Under the pieces are notes generated by a model, which worked only from the letters and a program-made list of their open reading frames with translations, was not told the DNA's origin and ran no database searches. A stretch of 64,000 bases of DNA from positions 1 through 64,000 of the forward strand of contig NZ_JACSWB010000157.1 in assembly GCF_016888135.1 (NCBI RefSeq). Reading direction: 5' to 3'. Position 1 is the stretch's first letter, and each line of letters begins with the position of its first letter. Shown here one piece after another: positions 422-12,325 of this stretch. The position numbers and the translations under genes are program-made. This DNA comes from Leptolyngbya sp. CCY15150. GTDB lineage: Bacteria > Cyanobacteriota > Cyanobacteriia > RECH01.

Positions 422-3400
422 TCAGTGCATCTCATACTTACCCTCAGCCGTGATCACTTGATTTCGTCCTGCTGCCTTAGCCCGGTATAGGGCCGCATCA
501 GCTGATTGAATCACCGCTCCCCCAGTTGTGCCGTGATCGGGGAAAACGGCTACTCCTAAGGAGACCGTAAGATTTTCCAACGTTCGCCCTCCATAGGACA
601 GGCTGAGGTGATGGATGGCGTCACGAATTTTCTCGGCTTTAGCCAGGGCATCTATGAGGGAGGTTTCAGGGAGGACCAAGGTGAGTTCCTCACCGCCATA
701 GCGGCAAGCAATGTCAGACCCACGGATGTGGTCTCCGATCACCTGGGCAATTGCCTTCAAAACGAAATCTCCGGCATCGTGCCCATGGGTATCATTAAAG
801 ACCTTGAAATGGTCAACATCGATCATGACCACAGCGGTCGGGTATTGATGTCGCTGGGCGCGGGCGATCTCAGCCTGTAGGGATTCTTCTAGGTAACGGC
901 GGTTGAAAAGCCCCGTTAGGGCATCACGAATACTCTGATTTTGTAGAGTTTCGCGCAAGTTCAGGTTAGCGATCGCCAGACCCACCTGCTCTGCTACCGT
1001 GCGGGCTAGTTGCTGTTTGGGTAGGGGCAACCCTTCGGGACGCTTAGTGCTGAGGTAAAACATCCCCAGGGTTTCTCCCTGGGCGATCATGGGGATGCAC
1101 AGGGTAACGAGGTCGGGCGGTGCGTCCTTAATGTGGTTGCAGTACAAACCTTGCCGGTCGGGAGTGATGCTGTGCCACCGGCCCCGTCGTAGAGCCCAGC
1201 AATCGTGGGGCTGAAAATCGGCAAGGGAGTGGAGGCTATCTCCCCAGCGGACTACGGCTTCGACGCGATTGCGAGATGCGCAGGTGATATGGAAACTGCC
1301 GGAGCAATTGGGAAACATAGGCTGTACCAGGGTTGAGATCACCGCACAGGCTTCTTCGAGGGTGCGGCAGGCCTGCAAAAAGTCGCTGGTTTCGCTCAGC
1401 ATCAGCATTTCATCATTGCGCTGACGCAGCTCCCTGAGGTGGACTTCCATGGCACTGTTGACCTGCTGTAGGGCTTGCTCAGAGGCTTTAACCGCCGAGA
1501 TGTCGCGGAAGGTGACGGCAAATCCATCGCCCAGCGGAACGGCAATATTTTCAAACCAGGTATCAAGGCCATCGTGCTGATAGTGAAACTGCCGCCGGAC
1601 GGGGGTTCCCGTTTCAACTACCTGAATATAAAGGTCAAATAGCCCATCGGTGCGGTTGCCGGGTAAAACGTCCAGCATTCGTTGACCGATTAACTCATGC
1701 AGGGGTTTGTTGACAGACTGGCAGGCGGTGGGGTTACTCAACGTCCACGCAAAGTCAACAATCTGGCCCTGGTCATCGCGAAGGGAACGGAAGGCCATAA
1801 CGCCATCGAGGGAGCTATTCAAGATGCCGCTGAGCTGAAGTTCCGACTGTTTTAGGGCCTCTTGGGTGTTAATCAGGGGCGTAATATCTGTTAATAGCCC
1901 AATCACCCCTTGCCATACACCTTCTTGATCAAAGATAGGCGTTCCCGAAATCAGGGTCCACAGATCAGAACCGTCTTGACGGAGAAATTTGAAGGAATGT
2001 TGTTCCTGGATTCCCTCCTGGCGGCGCGCGAAATAGTCTTGGGCCGTGACTTGATCGTCAGGGGTCATGAAATCTAAGAACGACTGGTGCTGCATCGTTT
2101 CGATGTCATAGCCTAACATCTCCGCCATGCGCTGGTTGACAAAGGTGGTCTTACTGTCAGCATCCAGTATCCAGACCCCCTCCAGGGTAGTTTCGATGAT
2201 ATTGCGGTAGCGGGCCTCGCTCTCCTGCAGGGCTAGTTCCTGGCGTTTGTTGTCGGATATATCGAGATGGCTGCCCACCATGCGTACCACCTGGCCATCG
2301 GCATCCTTCAGGTGGATGGCGCGGGACAGAACGAAAACCGTCGAGCCCTCTTTGTGGCGGAACCGCTGCACCGTTTTAAATTGGTCTACTTGGCCGCTGT
2401 TGTAGTCTTCGACCAGTTGTAGGGCCGCGATGCGGTCTGCTTCAAAAATGACCGAATCCCACATCTCAAAGGTATTGTCAAGTTCATGGTCGCCATAGCC
2501 GAGCATCTCTTTCCACCGGGGGGAGAAGTAGACGTCGTTGGTGGTGATATCCCAATCCCAGAAGCCTTCGGAGGAGGCTTGCAGCACCAGTTCTAGCTGG
2601 TCTTTGGCCTGTTTTAGATCCTGGGCAGATTGTTTGATGGAGGTGATATCGAAGTTGACACCAATTAGCCGCTGGGCCTCTCCGTGCTCGTTCCGCTGAA
2701 TTTTGGCACCAGACTGCACCCAATGGACTGAACCGTCAGACCACACAATGCGGTACTGAATGTCGCAACTGTGGTTCTTCGGGTCAGCTAGACATTGTTC
2801 GCTCTGGGCCTGCACCGTGGCGGCATCGTCGGGATGGAGGCGGTTTTTGAAGTCCTGTTGGTGGCCAGAAAAGTCCTCTGGAGCGAGGCCGTAAATCTGG
2901 AGCATACGGTCATCCCAGAGCAGGGTGTCGGTGACAACATCCCACTCCCAGATGCCGATTTGGGCCGACTGTACGGCCAGTGTGAGCCGGGTGGATAGAT
3001 TTTGCAGTTGGATTTCAGCTTGTTTGCGGCTAGTAATGTCCCGCACCATCACCAGCACTTCACTGTCTGAAAGCGGCGAGATGCGGGCTTCTTCGTAGTA
3101 GGTTTGGTGGTTTTGGGTAAAGGAATATTCTTGTTTTTGCGGCTGTCCGGTAGAGATGGCGATTTGTGCCAGATGAATACGTTCCTGGCCGATGTCAGTA
3201 GGCATAATGTCGAGAACGCTGTGCCCCTTAATGGGGTCTTCGTCTTCAAGACCTAAGCAGTGCACATTGCCAGTATTGATGACATCGATCTGCACGCCAT
3301 CCTGCCGCATCCGGACTAAAAAGTCGGGAATGGCCTGAATTAAGGCGCGATTGGTTGCTTCGCTCTGCCGTAGGGATTCTTCGGCCTGTTGACGCTGGGT

Positions 3401-6400
3401 GATATCAATATGGCAGCCAATCATCCGTAGAGGGTTGCCCGCGTCATCCCAGTCGATCACCTGCCCTGAGCAAAGAATCCAAACGGTAGAACCCTCTTTA
3501 TGGCGATAGCGCACCTCGTTGTAGTAAGGCTCTGTGCCGTGGCTCTGGACGTGGCGGTTGAACTGTTCCAGTACCACCGGCAGATCTTCTGGAAAGATCA
3601 GGTCTTGCCAGGTCTGGGGAGAATTAATCAGCTCGTGGTCTGCGTAACCCAGCATTTGCTTAAAGCCAGGACTCAAATATTCCTCATCATCAGCGATATG
3701 CCAGTCCCAGTAACCCGCCAGCACGATGTTTAAAATTTGCTCCAGCAGGCTCAATTCTTGCTCGGTCTGTTGGGCCTGCTGCCGCTCGGTTTCAATCTGT
3801 TTGTGTTCGGTAATATCGGTGATGGTGCCAACATAGCCTAATAGATCGCCAGCGGCGTTGTACTCGGCCACGGCCTGTCCATACACCCATGACACCGTGC
3901 CATCCGTAGACTGGAAACGGTATTCCAGTTCAAACGGTCTTCCCTGCTGGGCTGCTTGGGTCCAGGTACTAAACACGGCTTCCCGATCATCGGGGTAAAG
4001 CGCCTGTGCCCATCCTTCCCCCAGGGCCTCTTGCTGGGTTAACCCGGCAAGCTGTTCCCACCGTTGATTGGTGTAGATGCAGTGGCCATTGGCATCAGTA
4101 CGGAAAATGCCTACGGGCACCGCTGCTACTAAGCTGGCGTAGCGTTGCTCACTATCATGGAGGCGTGTTATGGCTTTGGCTTTTTCGCGCTCCAGCTGCT
4201 TTTTCTCCGTCAGGTCTTGCACGATGTAGGAGCAACGGGGGCGGTCATCGTTGCCCTGACCCACAAAGGACACCGTCACCAGCAGATTGTGTTGATCGGC
4301 CGGCGTGATGTGGGTGTAATCGAACTGTACCGGGCGCTGCTGCTGTTGGCTCTGGCGATAGTGTGTCAGCCAAAGTTGGATCACCTCAGCCGGTAACCCT
4401 ACCTCGCTGGCCCAATGGTTGGCCAAGGCGGCGGCGGTCAGTCCAAAAAAGGAAAGCGCTGCCGGATTGTCGGACAGATGGAGAATGTCATGATCGGAAA
4501 TTTCCACCAGCCCCATCAGCAGCGGCGAGGTGTCGTAAAAAATTCGCAGGGTTTCGGCCTGGTCACGAATCAGGGTTTCGGCCTGTTGCTGGTCAGTAAT
4601 GTCGATGGCGATCCCGCCAACTGCGGTGACTTGCCCCTCGGTATACACCGGGAACTTCCGCACCAGAAAAGTATGGAGGGTGCCATCGGGGGCTGTGCCC
4701 GGTTCGATGGTTTCAACCACCTGCCCAGTGTCTAATACCTGTTGGTTGGCCTGCCGATAGGTCTGGGCAAACTCGGGCGGGAATAGATCGGCAATGACCT
4801 GACCCAGGGCCGCTGTTTTGCTCTGCCCCACAAAGGTAAACCAGGCCTCGTTGCCGTATTCAACCCGCCCCTCGCGGCTGACGATCCAGCTCAGCAGGGG
4901 GGCATTGTCCATAAAGCGCTGAAAACGATCCTGGCTAGCTCTCAGGGCGCTTTCAGCTTGCTGGCGCAGGCGTTCATCGCGCTTTTGGGCGGTAATGTCG
5001 CGGGCAATTTTTGAGGCCCCGACGACTGCACCGTTTTCGCCATAAATCGGCGAGACGGTGAGGGAGACATCCACGAGGTGCCCATCTTGGTGTCGCCGCT
5101 GGGTTTCGTAGGTTTTGACTCGCTGACCCTGGCGAATCCGCGCCAGAATTTGGGCGGCCTCATCCCGATGATCAGGGGGAATGATGGCGGTAATTGGCTG
5201 GCCGATTATCTCTGCGGCGGTGTAGCCAAAGATGGCTTCGGCGGCGTGGTTCCAACTGGTGACGATGCCATCGGACGTTTTGCTGATAATGGCATCTTGC
5301 GACGACGCCACGATCGCCCCAAGCTGTTGCAGCCGAGCCTGGTCTCGTAAGCGGTCGGCGGTGGCCTGCTGGCGCTCGGTTATGTCCAGAATCACGGCTA
5401 AAAAGCGTGACTCAGCCCCGTGATGGGTTAACTGCAGGTGCACATCCACCGGGTAACGGCTGCCGTCTGACCGTTGATGGACGCTTTCGAAGTTCATTTT
5501 GGCGACTTCCTGGCGGCGCAGGGGGGTGATCAGGGTTTCAAACTCTGGCAACGTCAGGTCTGGTTTGATATCAACGGCGGTCATCTGCTGCAGTTGCTCT
5601 AGGCTGTAGCCCAGGTTGCGCAGCCCCCCCTGGTTGACGTACTCAAATTTCAACGTGTCGGCATTGAACAGGTAAATTTCGTTCAGGCTGGCTTCGAGCA
5701 TGTTGAGCAGGCGGGTGCGATCGCCCTCGGCCTGGAGGCGATCGCTAATATCCACCCCAGAGGGAATCAGGTGGGTAATTTCTCCTGTCCTGGGGTGTCG
5801 TAGCGGCTTCAGGGCGAAGTCGATGGTGATGAGCTGACCGCCCTGCATCTGCACCGGAATATCAAAGTGCGTCATGGTTCCCTGGTTCGCAGCTTCAATA
5901 GCCGATCGAATGGTGGCCTGGGCTTCGGAAGAGTAGGCCCACCAGTAGGCGTCGGCAAAGGGTTTACCAATCACATCGTCGCGGGTGAGACCAGCCATGT
6001 CTAGGAGAGCCTGGTTGGATTCCACTAAAATACCGTCGGGGGTCATCACCCCCACAAAGGCAAACAGACTGTTGAGCACCTGTTGTAAAAAGGCTTCACG
6101 CTGAATCACCTCAGCCGCCACCTGATTACGCTCTTGAATCTTGGCAATCAGCTTTTGATTCACCGCTCGCAGGGTACGGTTGGCGTCTTCCAACTTTTGA
6201 TTGGCTGCTTCCAGAGCCTGGTTGACCTGGGCCAGTTCGCGGGTGCGAGCCGCGACGTCGGCTTCTAGGGTGGTGTTTGCAATTTTCAGTTGGTCAATCA
6301 ATGCTGCCTGGTGAATGGCAATGCCCACCTGCATCGCCAGCAGTTGTAGCCCTTCGATCTCCACATCCTGCCAGGGGCGGGGAGCCTGACAGTGGTGGGC

Positions 6401-6874
6401 AATTAGCAGGCCCCAGAGAGTATTCTCCTTTAGGATGGGAATCACCAGATTGGCCTGCACCTGAAAGCTGGCTAAAAACTCGGCATGGCAGGGGGTGAGG
6501 TTGGCTTTAGCAATATCTTCGACAGCGAAATAGCGTTTCTCCTGGTAGGGTTCTAGCCAGCTGGATTCAAAGCAGGGATCGTGAACTACCCGATCAACCA
6601 CCGACCACTGGGGCTCAGAGACAGACTCGACCACCACACGACCGCTCCAATCGGGTTCGAACCGGTAGAGTAAGACGCGATCGCACCCCAGCAGCTGATG
6701 CACTTCATCCACCGTCGTCTGCAGGATTGCCCTCAGCTCTAGGGTCTGACGGATGCGCAGGGCAACCGCGTTAACCAGGTGATCCCAGGAGAGACAGGTC
6801 TCGAAGGTACGAACACACGTAGAGCATCCTGGGCTTGTCGTACAAGGCTTTTGGAACCCGACTGCGTCATTCAT
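422..6874 (-). CDS. DXCF-type cyanobacteriochrome / multi-PAS / GAF diguanylate cyclase
   Basis: This is a 2150-residue signalling protein. An N-terminal bilin-binding-type GAF (about residues 40-195) has the canonical chromophore pair Cys129-His130 ('TPCHAEFL') and a D99-P-C101-F motif, the second-cysteine signature of DXCF cyanobacteriochromes. A coiled coil (about 200-265) follows, then twelve PAS/PAC units recognisable by their 'DIT/DIS' ends, a second GAF, and a C-terminal GGDEF domain. The cyclase domain has DVDHFK metal ligands near 2019, an active-site GGEEL at 2060-2064 and an RxxD inhibitory site (RGSD, 2051-2054), so it should be catalytic. No EAL domain and no membrane segment were seen. 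Inferred role: light- and PAS-ligand-controlled c-di-GMP synthesis. The ATG at 6874 is the only well-placed start. The gene stands alone. Confidence 0.93.
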   Translation of the reverse strand: MNDAVGFQKPCTTSPGCSTCVRTFETCLSWDHLVNAVALRIRQTLELRAILQTTVDEVHQLLGCDRVLLYRFEPDWSGRVVVESVSEPQWSVVDRVVHDPCFESSWLEPYQEKRYFAVEDIAKANLTPCHAEFLASFQVQANLVIPILKENTLWGLLIAHHCQAPRPWQDVEIEGLQLLAMQVGIAIHQAALIDQLKIANTTLEADVAARTRELAQVNQALEAANQKLEDANRTLRAVNQKLIAKIQERNQVAAEVIQREAFLQQVLNSLFAFVGVMTPDGILVESNQALLDMAGLTRDDVIGKPFADAYWWAYSSEAQATIRSAIEAANQGTMTHFDIPVQMQGGQLITIDFALKPLRHPRTGEITHLIPSGVDISDRLQAEGDRTRLLNMLEASLNEIYLFNADTLKFEYVNQGGLRNLGYSLEQLQQMTAVDIKPDLTLPEFETLITPLRRQEVAKMNFESVHQRSDGSRYPVDVHLQLTHHGAESRFLAVILDITERQQATADRLRDQARLQQLGAIVASSQDAIISKTSDGIVTSWNHAAEAIFGYTAAEIIGQPITAIIPPDHRDEAAQILARIRQGQRVKTYETQRRHQDGHLVDVSLTVSPIYGENGAVVGASKIARDITAQKRDERLRQQAESALRASQDRFQRFMDNAPLLSWIVSREGRVEYGNEAWFTFVGQSKTAALGQVIADLFPPEFAQTYRQANQQVLDTGQVVETIEPGTAPDGTLHTFLVRKFPVYTEGQVTAVGGIAIDITDQQQAETLIRDQAETLRIFYDTSPLLMGLVEISDHDILHLSDNPAALSFFGLTAAALANHWASEVGLPAEVIQLWLTHYRQSQQQQRPVQFDYTHITPADQHNLLVTVSFVGQGNDDRPRCSYIVQDLTEKKQLEREKAKAITRLHDSEQRYASLVAAVPVGIFRTDANGHCIYTNQRWEQLAGLTQQEALGEGWAQALYPDDREAVFSTWTQAAQQGRPFELEYRFQSTDGTVSWVYGQAVAEYNAAGDLLGYVGTITDITEHKQIETERQQAQQTEQELSLLEQILNIVLAGYWDWHIADDEEYLSPGFKQMLGYADHELINSPQTWQDLIFPEDLPVVLEQFNRHVQSHGTEPYYNEVRYRHKEGSTVWILCSGQVIDWDDAGNPLRMIGCHIDITQRQQAEESLRQSEATNRALIQAIPDFLVRMRQDGVQIDVINTGNVHCLGLEDEDPIKGHSVLDIMPTDIGQERIHLAQIAISTGQPQKQEYSFTQNHQTYYEEARISPLSDSEVLVMVRDITSRKQAEIQLQNLSTRLTLAVQSAQIGIWEWDVVTDTLLWDDRMLQIYGLAPEDFSGHQQDFKNRLHPDDAATVQAQSEQCLADPKNHSCDIQYRIVWSDGSVHWVQSGAKIQRNEHGEAQRLIGVNFDITSIKQSAQDLKQAKDQLELVLQASSEGFWDWDITTNDVYFSPRWKEMLGYGDHELDNTFEMWDSVIFEADRIAALQLVEDYNSGQVDQFKTVQRFRHKEGSTVFVLSRAIHLKDADGQVVRMVGSHLDISDNKRQELALQESEARYRNIIETTLEGVWILDADSKTTFVNQRMAEMLGYDIETMQHQSFLDFMTPDDQVTAQDYFARRQEGIQEQHSFKFLRQDGSDLWTLISGTPIFDQEGVWQGVIGLLTDITPLINTQEALKQSELQLSGILNSSLDGVMAFRSLRDDQGQIVDFAWTLSNPTACQSVNKPLHELIGQRMLDVLPGNRTDGLFDLYIQVVETGTPVRRQFHYQHDGLDTWFENIAVPLGDGFAVTFRDISAVKASEQALQQVNSAMEVHLRELRQRNDEMLMLSETSDFLQACRTLEEACAVISTLVQPMFPNCSGSFHITCASRNRVEAVVRWGDSLHSLADFQPHDCWALRRGRWHSITPDRQGLYCNHIKDAPPDLVTLCIPMIAQGETLGMFYLSTKRPEGLPLPKQQLARTVAEQVGLAIANLNLRETLQNQSIRDALTGLFNRRYLEESLQAEIARAQRHQYPTAVVMIDVDHFKVFNDTHGHDAGDFVLKAIAQVIGDHIRGSDIACRYGGEELTLVLPETSLIDALAKAEKIRDAIHHLSLSYGGRTLENLTVSLGVAVFPDHGTTGGAVIQSADAALYRAKAAGRNQVITAEGKYEMH

Positions 6875-7320: not shown

Positions 7321-7983
7321 CTAGGATGTCATCTCCCCATGGCGTTTGGGTAATCCTAAAAGCGTTGCTAAGACCAGTCCAGACAGGCTGCTAGCGATCG
7401 CTACTCCGGCGAGGAGAGGCATCAGGGTCAAGAGGCGGCTCCCGATCGGTGTCACGTTAGGCAACAGCCGCTCGATGGGCCAGGGCAGGAAGCCCACCGT
7501 CAGCCCCAAGCCCCAAGCCAAGGCTGATCCTGGCACCCATATCCAGCTATGGCGGCAGTGGCGACGCAGCACCCACCACTGGGCCAGGCCCATGACGCCT
7601 CCCACCCATAAACCACTCATCAATCCACTGAACCATTGGACAGCGATCGCTGCTTGAGCCTGGGTCAAAGAAGCAATCAGCATCCAGCCTAAAATCATCC
7701 CGGTGTAGAAACTGATGACTAACCCTAGCGTGGTTGCCCATAGCCACCGATTGCCATGACGCATATGGGGACGCAGCACCCACCCTTGCCCCAGTCCCAC
7801 CATCCAACTGCTCAGCAATAACCCAGCGATGCTGGGCCCTTGGATGGTGATCATCAACCCCATGTTGACCACCAGCATCCACAAAACGCTGGCGATCGTG
7901 ACTAGCGTCCACCGCAGCCAAAATCGTTGATTTGCGACCCAGGGGGCTAGAGAGGGCATAGGGTAAGAGGGTAGCTGAATCAA
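7321..7983 (-). CDS. small multi-pass membrane protein with internal repeat
   Basis: A 220-residue, strongly hydrophobic protein with about six predicted membrane segments. It contains an internal duplication: 'GLGQGWVLRPHMRHGNRWLWATTLG' is echoed by 'GLAQWWVLRRHCRHSWIWVPGSALA', so the fold looks like two related halves. The G-x-x-Q-W-x-V-L-R motif is common in uncharacterised cyanobacterial membrane proteins, and I do not know its function. The first Met (7983) or the Met at residue 9 could be the start; neither has a convincing ribosome binding site. A decayed copy of its 3' part lies just upstream at 8071-8193. Confidence 0.75.
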   Translation of the reverse strand: MIQLPSYPMPSLAPWVANQRFWLRWTLVTIASVLWMLVVNMGLMITIQGPSIAGLLLSSWMVGLGQGWVLRPHMRHGNRWLWATTLGLVISFYTGMILGWMLIASLTQAQAAIAVQWFSGLMSGLWVGGVMGLAQWWVLRRHCRHSWIWVPGSALAWGLGLTVGFLPWPIERLLPNVTPIGSRLLTLMPLLAGVAIASSLSGLVLATLLGLPKRHGEMTS

Positions 7984-8070: not shown

Positions 8071-8193
8071 CCTAGAAAGCATTGCCAAGACTAGTCCAGA
8101 CAGAGCGCTAGCGATCGCTACTCCGGCGAGGAACGGCATCAGAGTCTAGAGGCGGCTTCCGATCCATGTCACGTTAGGCAACAGCCGCTCGAT
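8071..8193 (-). pseudogene. decayed duplicate of the 3' part of the membrane protein gene
   Basis: About 122 bp align without large gaps to 7355-7476 inside the membrane protein gene, including identical stretches such as CTAGCGATCGCTACTCC and TCACGTTAGGCAACAGCCG. In the corresponding minus-strand frame, a TTG leucine codon of the intact gene has become TAG, so the fragment cannot encode the same peptide. It starts and ends abruptly. This is a partial tandem duplication, or the stump of a lost second paralog, now decaying. Confidence 0.75.
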
Positions 8194-8291
8194 AGTCACT
8201 ATTCACTCACGCAGTATGAGCAAAATGGGTGGCCCCGGTTGCGATCGCCTGGGTAGACCCTCTAGAATGGGAGACAAGTTCTACTACGGCG

Positions 8292-8319
8292 TTGGTGACT
8301 GCCAATAGTGTTTTATGAT
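8292..8319 (+). promoter_or_regulatory. candidate sigma70-type promoter in the gun4 upstream region
   Basis: TTGGTG (8292-8297) and TATGAT (8314-8319) are separated by 16 bp on the plus strand, close to a consensus SigA promoter. A start near 8326 would give a transcript through the structured region that ends in the terminator-like hairpin at 8482-8525, or continue to gun4. The call rests on sequence match only. Confidence 0.35.
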
Positions 8320-8325
8320 CTATGC

Positions 8326-8525
8326 CTTTTGAATAAGGGAGCTTAATCACGTTCGATGGCAGTAAACCGGGCATGACCCGGAAACTTAAAATCGGGCTTA
8401 CGTTCCCACCTGGATTTTCCAGGTCAAAAACTGAGGTAAGACGGCGTTGTGGGGGACTTACTTAAAATTTTCCCAACCATGGAAGGGGGTGAGGATGAAC
8501 TGCGTTCGTCTCGCCCCCTTCTTTT
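8326..8525 (+). ncRNA. candidate structured ncRNA or gun4 leader
   Basis: Between the candidate promoter and gun4 lies about 200 nt with three strong local hairpins on the plus strand: CCGGG/CCCGG at 8367-8381, ACCTGGA/TCCAGGT at 8408-8424, and a long terminator-like stem at 8482-8521 followed by TTTT. No plausible open reading frame explains the segment. It could be a free-standing small RNA of about 200 nt, or a leader that attenuates transcription into gun4. I do not recognise a known Rfam family: I compared by eye with 6S, Yfr, SRP, tmRNA and glutamine-riboswitch signatures and found no match. Confidence 0.35.
8482..8525 (+). terminator. intrinsic terminator-like hairpin upstream of gun4
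   Basis: GAAGGGGGTGAG (8482-8493) pairs with CTCGCCCCCTTC (8510-8521), with one G-U wobble, around a loop that itself contains GAAC-TGC-GTTC. TTTT follows directly (8522-8525). The stem is unusually stable for this genome, and its polarity fits plus-strand transcription. It would end an upstream RNA about 240 nt before the gun4 ATG. Confidence 0.5.
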
Positions 8526-8658
8526 GTGGTTGCGATCGCATTCTGTCTGGAAATGGGTATCCGAAACCTTAGGTGAGCCGTTAAAGTAGAGAGTTGAGGA
8601 TGAAAATCCTACCTGAGTTTCACACCAAGGGCTACTGCCTTGCCCTACCGACGTTGAG

Positions 8659-8721
8659 TATAGGTTCGGTCTTGGTTGGACACTCCTATGAACCCTAGGC
8701 AACAGTCATGCCGGTTCATAG
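8659..8721 (+). promoter_or_regulatory. mutually exclusive hairpins just upstream of gun4
   Basis: CTATGAACC (8686-8694) can pair perfectly with GGTTCATAG (8713-8721). Overlapping bases GAACCCTA (8690-8697) can instead pair, with one bulge, with TAGGTTC (8661-8667). The two stems share the same strand segment and exclude each other, an arrangement typical of switching leaders. The segment ends 43 nt before the gun4 ATG. Regulation is inferred; only the complementarity is seen. Confidence 0.35.
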
Positions 8722-8763
8722 CCCCACTGTTCCCATATATCCCGTGCCCTAACTCTGTTTTTT

Positions 8764-9486
8764 ATGACTGCTGTGCAAGATCATCTTCCCACCTCCATAG
8801 ACGAACTCCAGGCTCAGCTAGAGTCTTCCAGCCTACCCAAGCAACTGCAACAGCTCAGCGATATTGCCGCCGCCGGTGAGCCAGGGTTGTCGCTGTTTAT
8901 GGACTTTTTGCGCGATCGCCCTCCCAGCGATCGCCCCTCTGAAGTGATCATCCGAGGCACCATGTATCAATACCTGGTGGCCGATCGCCGCGACACCACC
9001 CAAGCTTTCCTTCAGCAGCACTTGCCCGACGGCGTCGTGGCCCTAGAGAGCGATCGCTCCATCGACTACCGTCCTCTGCAACAGCTTCTGGCCCAGCAAG
9101 ACTTTGAAGAAGCCGATCGGGTGACGCTGCAAAAAATGTGTGAACTATCAGGCGAAACAGCGATCGCCCGTAAATGGCTCTATTTCACCGAAGTGGATGG
9201 TTTCCCGATCAGCGATCTTTGCACCATCGATCGCCTGTGGCTGGCCCATTCCCAAGGTAAATTTGGCTTCTCGGTGCAGCGAGAGCTATGGCTGGGCAGC
9301 GGCAAAAACTGGGATGTTCTCTGGTCAAAAATTGGCTGGCGTACGGAGAAACTCTGGACGCGCTATCCCAATGAATTCACCTGGGATCTATCTGCCCCCC
9401 GCGGCCACTTGCCGCTCACGAACCAGTTGCGCGGTGTGCGGGTGATGGCAGCGTTGATGAAACATCCCGCATGGAGCGATCGCTAG
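8764..9486 (+). CDS. gun4: GUN4, Mg-chelatase activator (tetrapyrrole-binding)
   Basis: A 240-residue protein, close to the usual cyanobacterial GUN4 length of about 230. Residues 1-85 form the helical N-terminal domain found in cyanobacterial GUN4; the GUN4 core (about 86-235) carries the 'LQQLLAQQDFEEAD' entry helix and the family-typical 'IDRLWLAHSQGKFGFSVQ' and 'KIGWRT' segments around the porphyrin-binding cavity. GUN4 binds protoporphyrin IX and Mg-protoporphyrin and stimulates the ChlH subunit of Mg-chelatase in chlorophyll synthesis. It stands alone on the plus strand behind a structured leader (8326-8721) that may regulate it. The start is ATG 8764. Confidence 0.95.
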   Translation: MTAVQDHLPTSIDELQAQLESSSLPKQLQQLSDIAAAGEPGLSLFMDFLRDRPPSDRPSEVIIRGTMYQYLVADRRDTTQAFLQQHLPDGVVALESDRSIDYRPLQQLLAQQDFEEADRVTLQKMCELSGETAIARKWLYFTEVDGFPISDLCTIDRLWLAHSQGKFGFSVQRELWLGSGKNWDVLWSKIGWRTEKLWTRYPNEFTWDLSAPRGHLPLTNQLRGVRVMAALMKHPAWSDR

Positions 9487-9494
9487 AGGTTTAA

Positions 9495-9545
9495 CGCGTT
9501 ACGCTGGCGCTTTAGCGAAGCCATGTCGCAGGCTATAGCATCCTA
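9495..9545. repeat. small interspersed repeat after gun4
   Basis: The stretch beginning with GCGTTACGCTGGCGCTTTAG and continuing through GCGAAGCCATGTCGCAGGCTATAGC resembles the GCGTAGCC/GCGAAG-type short repeats common in cyanobacterial spacers. A related element is at 45472-45540. I see no gene in the 152-bp gap before the caspase gene. Confidence 0.35.
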
Positions 9546-9638
9546 CCGATCCATAAGGATTTCTGCTTCATAAAGAATACGGAACACCACCCGTAACCTG
9601 GTTTAAACTAAGGCGGCACCCCTGACGATCGCTGCTCC

Positions 9639-11477
9639 ATGACCAGAAACTGGGCCATCTGCATTGGTATTAACGATTACTACAACCTCCAGCCGCTTCA
9701 GTATGCGGTGCAGGATGCGATCGCTGTGCGAGATTTTTTTCTCACCACGGTCAAGTTCGAGCAGGTCTTTTACTTTGCCGATGATTCGCCGCCCATCCAG
9801 ACGCCTCGGGGAGAGATGCGATCGCTGCCCACGTTTGGCAACCTGAAGCGCTTTTTTCGGGAACGGTTTCAGCAACCGTTTTTGGAGACGGGGGACAATT
9901 TTTGGTTTTTCTTTGCCGGCCATGGCGAACTGCATGAGGGCCACGACTACCTGATGCCCATTGATGTGGATCCGGGCAATATTGCCGAAACGGCTCTGCG
10001 GGTGAGTGATGTGACCGCCTGTCTGCGCAACTGCGGAGCGGATAATACAATTTTGCTGTTGGATGCCTGCCGCAGCCAGGGTCGCCGTCAGGGGACGGGT
10101 CTGGGAACGGAGGAGCAGCAGGGGATGGTGACGATCTATAGCTGTAGCCCTCGGGAAGCGTCCTATGAACTTGAGGCGCTGGGGCACGGTTCCTTTACCC
10201 ATGCGCTGCTAGAGGGACTGACGCTTCAAGGGGCGAACAATTGCGCCACGGTGGAACGGTTGAACCTGCATCTGCGGTATCAGGTGCCGAACCTGAATGC
10301 CCGGCATGGCAAGCCAAAGCAGACGCCCTATACGGCCGTGGAGCCGCTGTCGAAGAATTATCTAATCTTGCTGCCAGAGCAGGCGACGGTGCAGGATGTG
10401 CTGACGCTGAAATCGGAAGCGCAGGATGCGGAGCTGAATAATCAGCTTGACTTGGCGAAACAGCTTTGGATTCGGGTGCTGGGAGCATCAAGGGCAGATC
10501 TTCAAGCTATTACTGCACTAGAGCGAATTGCTCTAAAGCGGGTTCGTGAATTCAGTTCTCCCAAGCCAACTTCCTCAGTAGCCGGACAGCGTAGCCAAGA
10601 GCGTGCTTCTACCCCCGTGGTTGAATTTGAGGTAGCAACGCTCGAAATTGCTCCAGGATTGTTTGGCTTGGGAACTAAGCTAGTCCGCCAGACTCGTCAG
10701 GGTCGCACTGAGTACCGTCAAGAATCGTTAGGTCAAGGGGTGACGCTAGATCTGATGTTGATGCCTAGCGGTACGTTTACTATGGGTTCTCCTGATGGTG
10801 AGGGATACAAGGACGAACAGCCCCAGCATTCAGTCACTATTGCGTCCTTTTGGATGGGCAAATATCCCGTGACCCAGAGTCAATGGCGTACTGTCTCAGC
10901 CCTGCCTAGGATCGAACGTGATCTTGATGTCGATCCAGCCAGCTTTAAGGGGGACAATCGCCCGGTGGAGAAAGTGAGCTGGTATGATGCGGTGGAATTT
11001 TGCCAGAGACTGTCAAAGCATACGGAGCGAGAGTATCGCCTGCCCAGTGAAGCCGAGTGGGAATATGCCTGTCGGGCTGGGACTACAACGCCATTTTATG
11101 TTGGCCCAACGATCACCACAGATTTAGCGAATTATAACGGCAACTATACCTATAGCAATGGTTCGACGGGAATCTATCGAGAAGAAACAACCGAGGTCGG
11201 CAGCTTCCCGGCTAACGCCTTTGGCCTGTACGATATGCATGGCAATGTTTGGGAGTGGTGCCTCGATCACTGGCATGATACGTATCAAGATGCTCCAACT
11301 GACGGCAGTGCTTGGGTGGCGGGTGGCGATAATGCTTTGAGAGTGCTGCGGGGCGGTTCGTGGAGCGGCAATCCGAGGAACTGCCGCTCGGCGAATCGTG
11401 GTTGGTTCGGTCCGGGCGGCAGGTACAACTACGTCGGGTTTCGGGTTGTCGTCTCCTCGGCGTGGGCTCTTTCATAG
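9639..11477 (+). CDS. orthocaspase fused to FGE/CLec-fold domain; likely DGR variable protein
   Basis: A 612-residue fusion. Residues 1-240 are a caspase-like (peptidase C14) domain with the catalytic dyad His95 ('FFAGHGE') and Cys144 ('LLLDACRS'). A helical linker (about 245-330) leads to a formylglycine-generating-enzyme-type, C-type-lectin-fold domain (about 365-605) with family marks 'PSGTFTMGS', 'YRLPSEAEWEYACR', 'GLYDMHGNVWEW' and 'RVLRGGSW'. Such FGE domains usually act as binding modules, and in cyanobacteria they are frequent targets of diversity-generating retroelements. The last 40 codons show that signature (separate entry). Likely role: regulated proteolysis or self-killing triggered by a variable receptor domain. 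A Pepco-like gene follows 173 bp downstream. No signal peptide is present, so it is cytoplasmic. ATG 9639 is a plausible start. Confidence 0.93.
   Translation: MTRNWAICIGINDYYNLQPLQYAVQDAIAVRDFFLTTVKFEQVFYFADDSPPIQTPRGEMRSLPTFGNLKRFFRERFQQPFLETGDNFWFFFAGHGELHEGHDYLMPIDVDPGNIAETALRVSDVTACLRNCGADNTILLLDACRSQGRRQGTGLGTEEQQGMVTIYSCSPREASYELEALGHGSFTHALLEGLTLQGANNCATVERLNLHLRYQVPNLNARHGKPKQTPYTAVEPLSKNYLILLPEQATVQDVLTLKSEAQDAELNNQLDLAKQLWIRVLGASRADLQAITALERIALKRVREFSSPKPTSSVAGQRSQERASTPVVEFEVATLEIAPGLFGLGTKLVRQTRQGRTEYRQESLGQGVTLDLMLMPSGTFTMGSPDGEGYKDEQPQHSVTIASFWMGKYPVTQSQWRTVSALPRIERDLDVDPASFKGDNRPVEKVSWYDAVEFCQRLSKHTEREYRLPSEAEWEYACRAGTTTPFYVGPTITTDLANYNGNYTYSNGSTGIYREETTEVGSFPANAFGLYDMHGNVWEWCLDHWHDTYQDAPTDGSAWVAGGDNALRVLRGGSWSGNPRNCRSANRGWFGPGGRYNYVGFRVVVSSAWALS
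11364..11450 (+). other. candidate DGR variable region (VR) at the 3' end of the caspase-FGE gene
   Basis: Codons 576-598 encode S-G-N-P-R-N-C-R-S-A-N-R-G-W-F-G-P-G-G-R-Y-N-Y, where related proteins typically carry Asn-rich stretches. Every unusual codon can be derived from an A-containing codon by changing adenines only: AGC and GGC from AAC, GGT from AAT, TGG from AGG, TTC from AAC, GGC from GAC, TAC from AAC. The invariant codons between them (CCG, TGC CGC TCG, CGT) contain no A. An A-poor, GC-rich block, GTCGGGTTTCGGGTTGTC (11433-11450), follows at the place of the initiation-of-mutagenic-homing site. No template repeat or reverse transcriptase was found in the window. Confidence 0.65.
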
Positions 11478-11650: not shown

Positions 11651-12028
11651 ATGGCAGACGGCGATCAGCTTTGGATTTTGACCGAGATTGAAGACATCGA
11701 CGAAACCGTGATCATTGAAGGGCAGCGATCGGGTCGGCGGGATACGGGAGGCGGCTTTGATCCAGTCGACACCGTGGAGCAAACCACCACCGTCACGCGC
11801 CGCAAGCGGGTATCGATTGATGCTCAGCTTGTGAAAACTCAGATGGAAAGTATGCTGGCGATCGTCAATGACCTCTTCAGCCAAGCGGAGACCACCACGG
11901 GATTGCGCCTCGATGAAGTGGAATTGTCGGTGGATATTAGTGCCGAGGGTCAGATCAGCATCATCGGCAATGGTGGCAAGCTGGGCAATAGCGGCGGCAT
12001 TAAACTGAAATTCACCCGTCCGGTGTAG
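11651..12028 (+). CDS. small Pepco/Trypco-like effector-associated protein
   Basis: A 125-residue soluble protein starting 'MADGDQLWILTEIEDIDETVIIE'. A short variable loop (about 28-45) precedes a helix 'DAQLVKTQMESMLAIVNDLFSQAE' and a strand-rich end 'LDEVELSVDISAEGQISIIGNGG....GGIKLKFTRP'. This layout resembles the small effector-associated domains (Pepco, Trypco1) that occur next to caspase- and trypsin-like peptidases in bacterial conflict systems. The neighbouring caspase-FGE gene on the same strand, 173 bp upstream, supports that reading. No catalytic motif is visible. Its job may be to link sensor and protease or to scaffold their assembly; this is inference. The assignment is by sequence pattern. 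Confidence 0.6.
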   Translation: MADGDQLWILTEIEDIDETVIIEGQRSGRRDTGGGFDPVDTVEQTTTVTRRKRVSIDAQLVKTQMESMLAIVNDLFSQAETTTGLRLDEVELSVDISAEGQISIIGNGGKLGNSGGIKLKFTRPV

Positions 12029-12032
12029 GGTT

Positions 12033-12253
12033 TTCAAAGCCCCTCTACCGACCTGGGAAAGGAGTTTGGGGTGAGGGTCTTGGAGTTGCGTTTGTTCGGG
12101 AGCGATCGCCCTTGATAAGCTGCGCCACCCTTTCCCCCTCATCCCCCAGCCCCTTCTCCCACAAGGGTAGAAGGGGAGCAAGAGTGCAGAGAATGGGTTG
12201 CTTTCAAAGCCCCTCTACCGTTCTGGGAGATGGGTTTGGGGTGAGGGTCTTCT
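12033..12253. repeat. pair of direct repeats with an embedded REP-like element
   Basis: Two copies of a ~50-bp unit (12031-12081 and about 12207-12252) share TTTCAAAGCCCCTCTACCG, then TGGGA, and end in TTTGGGGTGAGGGTCTT. Between them, at 12121-12178, lies CCCTCATCCCCCAGCCCCTT continuing into a CTTCTCCC/GGTAGAAGGGG hairpin. The same family appears in the spacer at 19999-20110. These are small dispersed, non-coding repeats of the kind common in cyanobacterial spacers. This spacer (12029-12325) holds no gene. Confidence 0.6.
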
Positions 12254-12325
12254 GCTCTCTCATCCTGATCATGAGCTGCATGGAATGTAGGAAGGAAGCA
12301 GCTTGCATCGGAGATAGACGAGGAT

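Follow-up and report, generated by a model that had tools for sequence, protein, structure and literature searches.

The window analysed here is a stretch of 64,000 nt from Leptolyngbya sp. CCY15150 (GCF_016888135.1, contig NZ_JACSWB010000157.1, positions 1-64,000, forward strand). On its forward strand lies gun4 (8764-9486; PF05419, E 1.4e-64; PF16416, GUN4_N, E 4.4e-16), preceded by a spacer of 238 bases (8526-8763) that we refer to as the gun4 leader. Further upstream on the same strand we find a 6S (SsrS/SsaA) RNA gene (8278-8459), with a probable promoter before it (8239-8268) and an intrinsic terminator behind it (8481-8525). A preliminary description of this DNA had singled out 8292-8763 as a structured stretch upstream of gun4 in which nothing codes for protein. 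The structure is real, and Pfam, even at a threshold of E 1, matched none of the three chance open reading frames that overlap the stretch; the reading of the structure was wrong in part, as most of it is 6S RNA. Judging from the sequence, we are nearly certain that the stretch represents the single 6S RNA gene of the genome, with a promoter and a terminator of its own, on the same strand upstream of gun4.

The Rfam model RF00013 matches 8278-8459 (+) over model positions 1-187 of 187 with 91.4 bits (E 7.1e-17), about twice the gathering score of 46.4 bits. It is the sole Rfam match in the entire 64 kb window, and it corrects the earlier statement that no known Rfam family could be recognised between 8292 and 8763. 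Moreover, the region 8275-8462 folds on its own at -61.5 kcal/mol (z -3.1) and thereby beats 200 of 200 dinucleotide shuffles. When the window copy was aligned with 30 homologues (31 sequences), the consensus comprised a closing stem of 13 pairs and a short second stem, a long 5' region left unpaired, an inner stem and two hairpins, one terminal and one, of small size, on the bubble's 3' side. In the window, the 5' strand of the closing stem (8282-8294) pairs with 8442-8454, and the 5' side of the central region, unpaired in the consensus, spans 8304-8351. Two clean hairpins had been noted previously; both are present and both belong to the 6S RNA. One is the terminal hairpin (8367-8381), in which five of five pairs are kept in the 31 sequences, four of them with two-sided changes, and the other (8409-8423) is the small hairpin on the central bubble's 3' side, which is part of the consensus structure.

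Paired cells make up 96.1% of 1232 in the alignment, and two-sided (compensatory) changes are found in 23 of the 40 base pairs across the 31 sequences, a number reached by no shuffle. The covariation score was 0.364 versus 0.159 after shuffling (0 of 500 shuffles as high) and 0.05-0.07 with the pairing partner slid, although these controls lean toward the 6S structure because it was derived from that same alignment. The RF00013 match is independent of our 31 sequences. The RNA has the form of one long hairpin, with closing stem, central bubble and terminal stem-loop, and with covariation; by sequence, structure and covariation, 8278-8459 is a 6S homologue.

The comparison also bears on the promoter. 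A near-consensus promoter had been placed at 8292-8319 (TTGGTG-16-TATGAT), which falls inside the 6S RNA: the TTGGTG is part of the conserved GTTGGTG strand of the closing stem, and the TATGAT, contained in 8304-8351 and mistaken for a -10 box, belongs to the bubble's 5' side, likewise conserved. What comparison supports is a site upstream, at 8239-8268, composed of TTGCGA (8239-8244), 18 nt and TAGAAT (8263-8268). The TAGAAT box lies 9 nt ahead of the first RF00013 model position, and every one of the 31 aligned 6S genes has a -10-like hexamer at most 18 nt upstream, compared with 16% of control positions. TTGCGA makes a weak -35 box, and the promoter scan, taken on its own, did not rise above chance. 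At the other end, the very stable terminator-like stem with TTTT that had been described earlier is confirmed and is the terminator of the 6S gene. It combines a 19-bp stem (8481-8522) with a T-run (8522-8525); the fold amounts to -30.6 kcal/mol for 8478-8524, with z -5.9 against shuffles for 8463-8530. By a loose rule, and as a count without shuffle control, terminator-like hairpins lie downstream of 28 of the 31 6S genes. The promoter-like and terminator-like elements bracket about 185 nt, a predicted discrete 6S RNA with its start at approximately 8275.

In a search with Escherichia coli and Bacillus subtilis as positive controls, the genome (5.75 Mb, 99.96% complete) gave a single copy of 6S. 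Exactly one 6S gene was found in 93 of the 96 genomes searched, Leptolyngbya sp. CCY15150 included. The genomic position is where this gene departs from its relatives. No 6S RNA was detected by a model built from our own 6S alignment in 109 other gun4 loci, for which flanks of 1.5 to 5 kb were covered as far as contig ends permitted and in which a few genomes, drawn from two collections, are counted twice. Having 6S next to gun4 appears to be a peculiarity of this lineage. The upstream neighbour of 6S belongs to one gene cluster, of the purK type, in 17 of 30 relatives, and one member of that cluster was identified as purK by NCBIfam; in the remaining 13, purK is not directly upstream. A purK neighbourhood of 6S has been reported for several cyanobacteria (PMC1242208). 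Cyanobacterial 6S usually lies downstream of purK, though this is not a defining property; here it does not, and the best purK-type match in Leptolyngbya sp. CCY15150 is on a different contig from 6S. No paper came up in a literature search combining 6S RNA with gun4. Two same-genus assemblies (listed as 95% and 99% complete) contain neither 6S nor a close gun4 homologue. These absences are probably assembly gaps; a linked block absent from the two drafts would fit, as would, equally, chance or real loss.

It could be hypothesized that the hairpins of 8292-8763 form a single long leader or attenuator and act jointly on gun4 transcription. Every element is on the gun4 strand and the terminator sits between the 6S promoter and gun4, as such a leader would have it. 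However, its first 180 bases are the 6S RNA that is present in 93 of 96 genomes, 6S is not beside gun4 in the 109 other gun4 loci, and a terminator-like hairpin ends most other 6S genes too. We regard a joint leader as highly improbable.

The position could also be taken to mean that 8278-8459 is a decayed, non-functional copy left behind by a rearrangement. The gene is away from purK, and a decayed partial copy of the neighbouring gene 7321-7983 lies just upstream; against this, there is no other 6S copy in a nearly complete genome, and neither the sequence and its pairs nor the -10 box and terminator show any damage, leaving this explanation with next to no probability. The upstream copy deserves a description in its own right. 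The 123 bases at 8071-8193 have 88.6% identity to 7355-7476, the 3' end of a gene for 220 aa on the reverse strand (7321-7983), and are a decayed partial duplicate of that gene. In a same-genus genome, the homologue of the 7321-7983 gene has different DNA on the side that faces 6S here.

According to the preliminary description the stretch could be a free small RNA plus a switching leader, or an attenuator that adjusts GUN4. The small RNA was rightly seen, and it is the known, near-universal 6S RNA. The switching leader found no support. The hypothesis would be that a separate leader at 8526-8763 follows the 6S RNA, with the stems 8661-8697 and 8686-8721 competing and so adjusting gun4 expression. 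The two stems are indeed mutually exclusive, through their shared bases 8686-8697. The 9-bp perfect stem 8686-8721 is mildly unusual, being matched by 2.8% of shuffles of the region, and the final 120 nt before gun4 are somewhat stabler than shuffles (z -2.1). The competing stem 8661-8697, however, is at chance level, with 49% of shuffles folding as well, and has a predicted pair probability of 0.0 versus 1.0 for 8686-8721. A T-run follows neither stem, both leave the start codon uncovered, and 8686-8721 stops 42 nt short of the gun4 ATG. The region 8530-8763 as a whole has no fold excess (z -0.45; 69 of 200 shuffles fold as well), and the leader has no Rfam match. Nor did it resemble the 108 other, more distant gun4 upstream regions with which it was compared, where one 23-base match (E 0.53) is noise. 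We think it very unlikely, from these points taken together, that a switch of this kind operates on gun4.

Among closer relatives, the leader was matched by none of the three further genomes of the order (four in total), the stretch being absent from their assemblies; in the same-family genome the contig with gun4 breaks off where the match starts and so carries no upstream DNA. Of 108 gun4 leaders, six, that of Leptolyngbya sp. CCY15150 among them, have a perfect stem of at least 9 bp in their final 120 nt. Perfect stems of 13-24 bp, which may represent repeats or terminate the gene before, lie within 120 nt upstream of gun4 in three genomes from a single other genus. The Leptolyngbya leader resembles riboswitches and transcription attenuators in having overlapping stems upstream of a gene. 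It differs from them in that no conserved core emerged from the comparison with the 108 more distant leaders, its alternative stems lack a terminator tail and its start codon is unmasked, and a pair of alternative structures of which one is a terminator or a mask of the start site was not found in it. The claim of an attenuator adjusting GUN4 finds no support in family match, overall fold, similarity to the other gun4 leaders or the two stems themselves. In our view there are no good grounds for placing an RNA switch of its own before gun4, and nothing positive hints at a metabolite or light switch.

Two further readings of the leader were rejected. It is not a dispersed repeat, as it is single copy in its own genome. 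A gun4 promoter in 8525-8763 was likewise dismissed: none reaches at least 9 of 12 positions, the best having 8 of 12 and a poor -10 box. Since the gap holds no convincing gun4 promoter, some dependence of gun4 on readthrough is conceivable.

What the RNA does may be read from its family. 6S RNA acts as a mimic of an open promoter, binding to RNA polymerase holoenzyme until synthesis of a product RNA frees it, and in vitro work indicates that open-promoter mimicry, holoenzyme binding and product-RNA release are conserved in cyanobacteria (PMC5721685). Synechocystis 6803 without 6S recovers more slowly from nitrogen starvation and is slower in recruiting SigA (PMC5721685). By analogy, we infer that the RNA from 8278-8459 would mimic an open promoter and bind RNA polymerase holoenzyme, would act as template for a short product RNA, and may aid the change of sigma factors upon nutrient shifts. 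With the cyanobacterial 6S RNA (SsaA, 6Sa or Yfr7; RF00013) it shares closing stem, central bubble, terminal hairpin, motifs, single copy, -10 box and terminator, and it differs in location, upstream of gun4 here rather than directly downstream of purK as in several cyanobacteria (PMC1242208). The 6S RNAs of Escherichia coli and Bacillus subtilis (SsrS, 6S-1) belong to the same Rfam family and have the same overall architecture, whereas the cyanobacterial mode of action may differ partly from theirs, as suggested by Synechocystis 6803, in which 6S promotes SigA recruitment while cells recover from nitrogen starvation (PMC5721685).

The structured stretch is thereby settled as one of the standard global regulators of RNA polymerase rather than a new leader; it is an ordinary cyanobacterial gene of an already-known RNA family in an unusual place. 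The sole new fact is its position beside gun4, which adds evidence that 6S does not always adjoin purK in cyanobacteria. This unusual position has no demonstrated meaning. The strong terminator would largely uncouple 6S from gun4, which may be transcribed from a start of its own in the gap or via slight readthrough. A more far-reaching hypothesis is that, in the Leptolyngbya lineage, incomplete termination couples 6S transcription, and hence nutrient state, to gun4 and chlorophyll synthesis; we give it little credence, and the adjacency would carry physiological weight only if readthrough into gun4 were demonstrated.

The neighbourhood holds several other elements. Upstream, 422-6874 on the reverse strand encodes a protein of 2150 aa that carries many PAS domains and, at its C-terminus, a GGDEF domain. 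Just downstream of gun4, 9487-9600 is a short repeat with six further matches in the genome, and 12020-12260 is a dispersed repeat with 45 matches in its own genome and many in two same-genus genomes. Between these repeats, 9639-11477 encodes a caspase-like protein with an FGE-sulfatase domain and is followed by a Pepco-domain protein (11651-12028). The caspase part gave a weak PADLOC match, and the two genes are possibly a conflict or defence pair.
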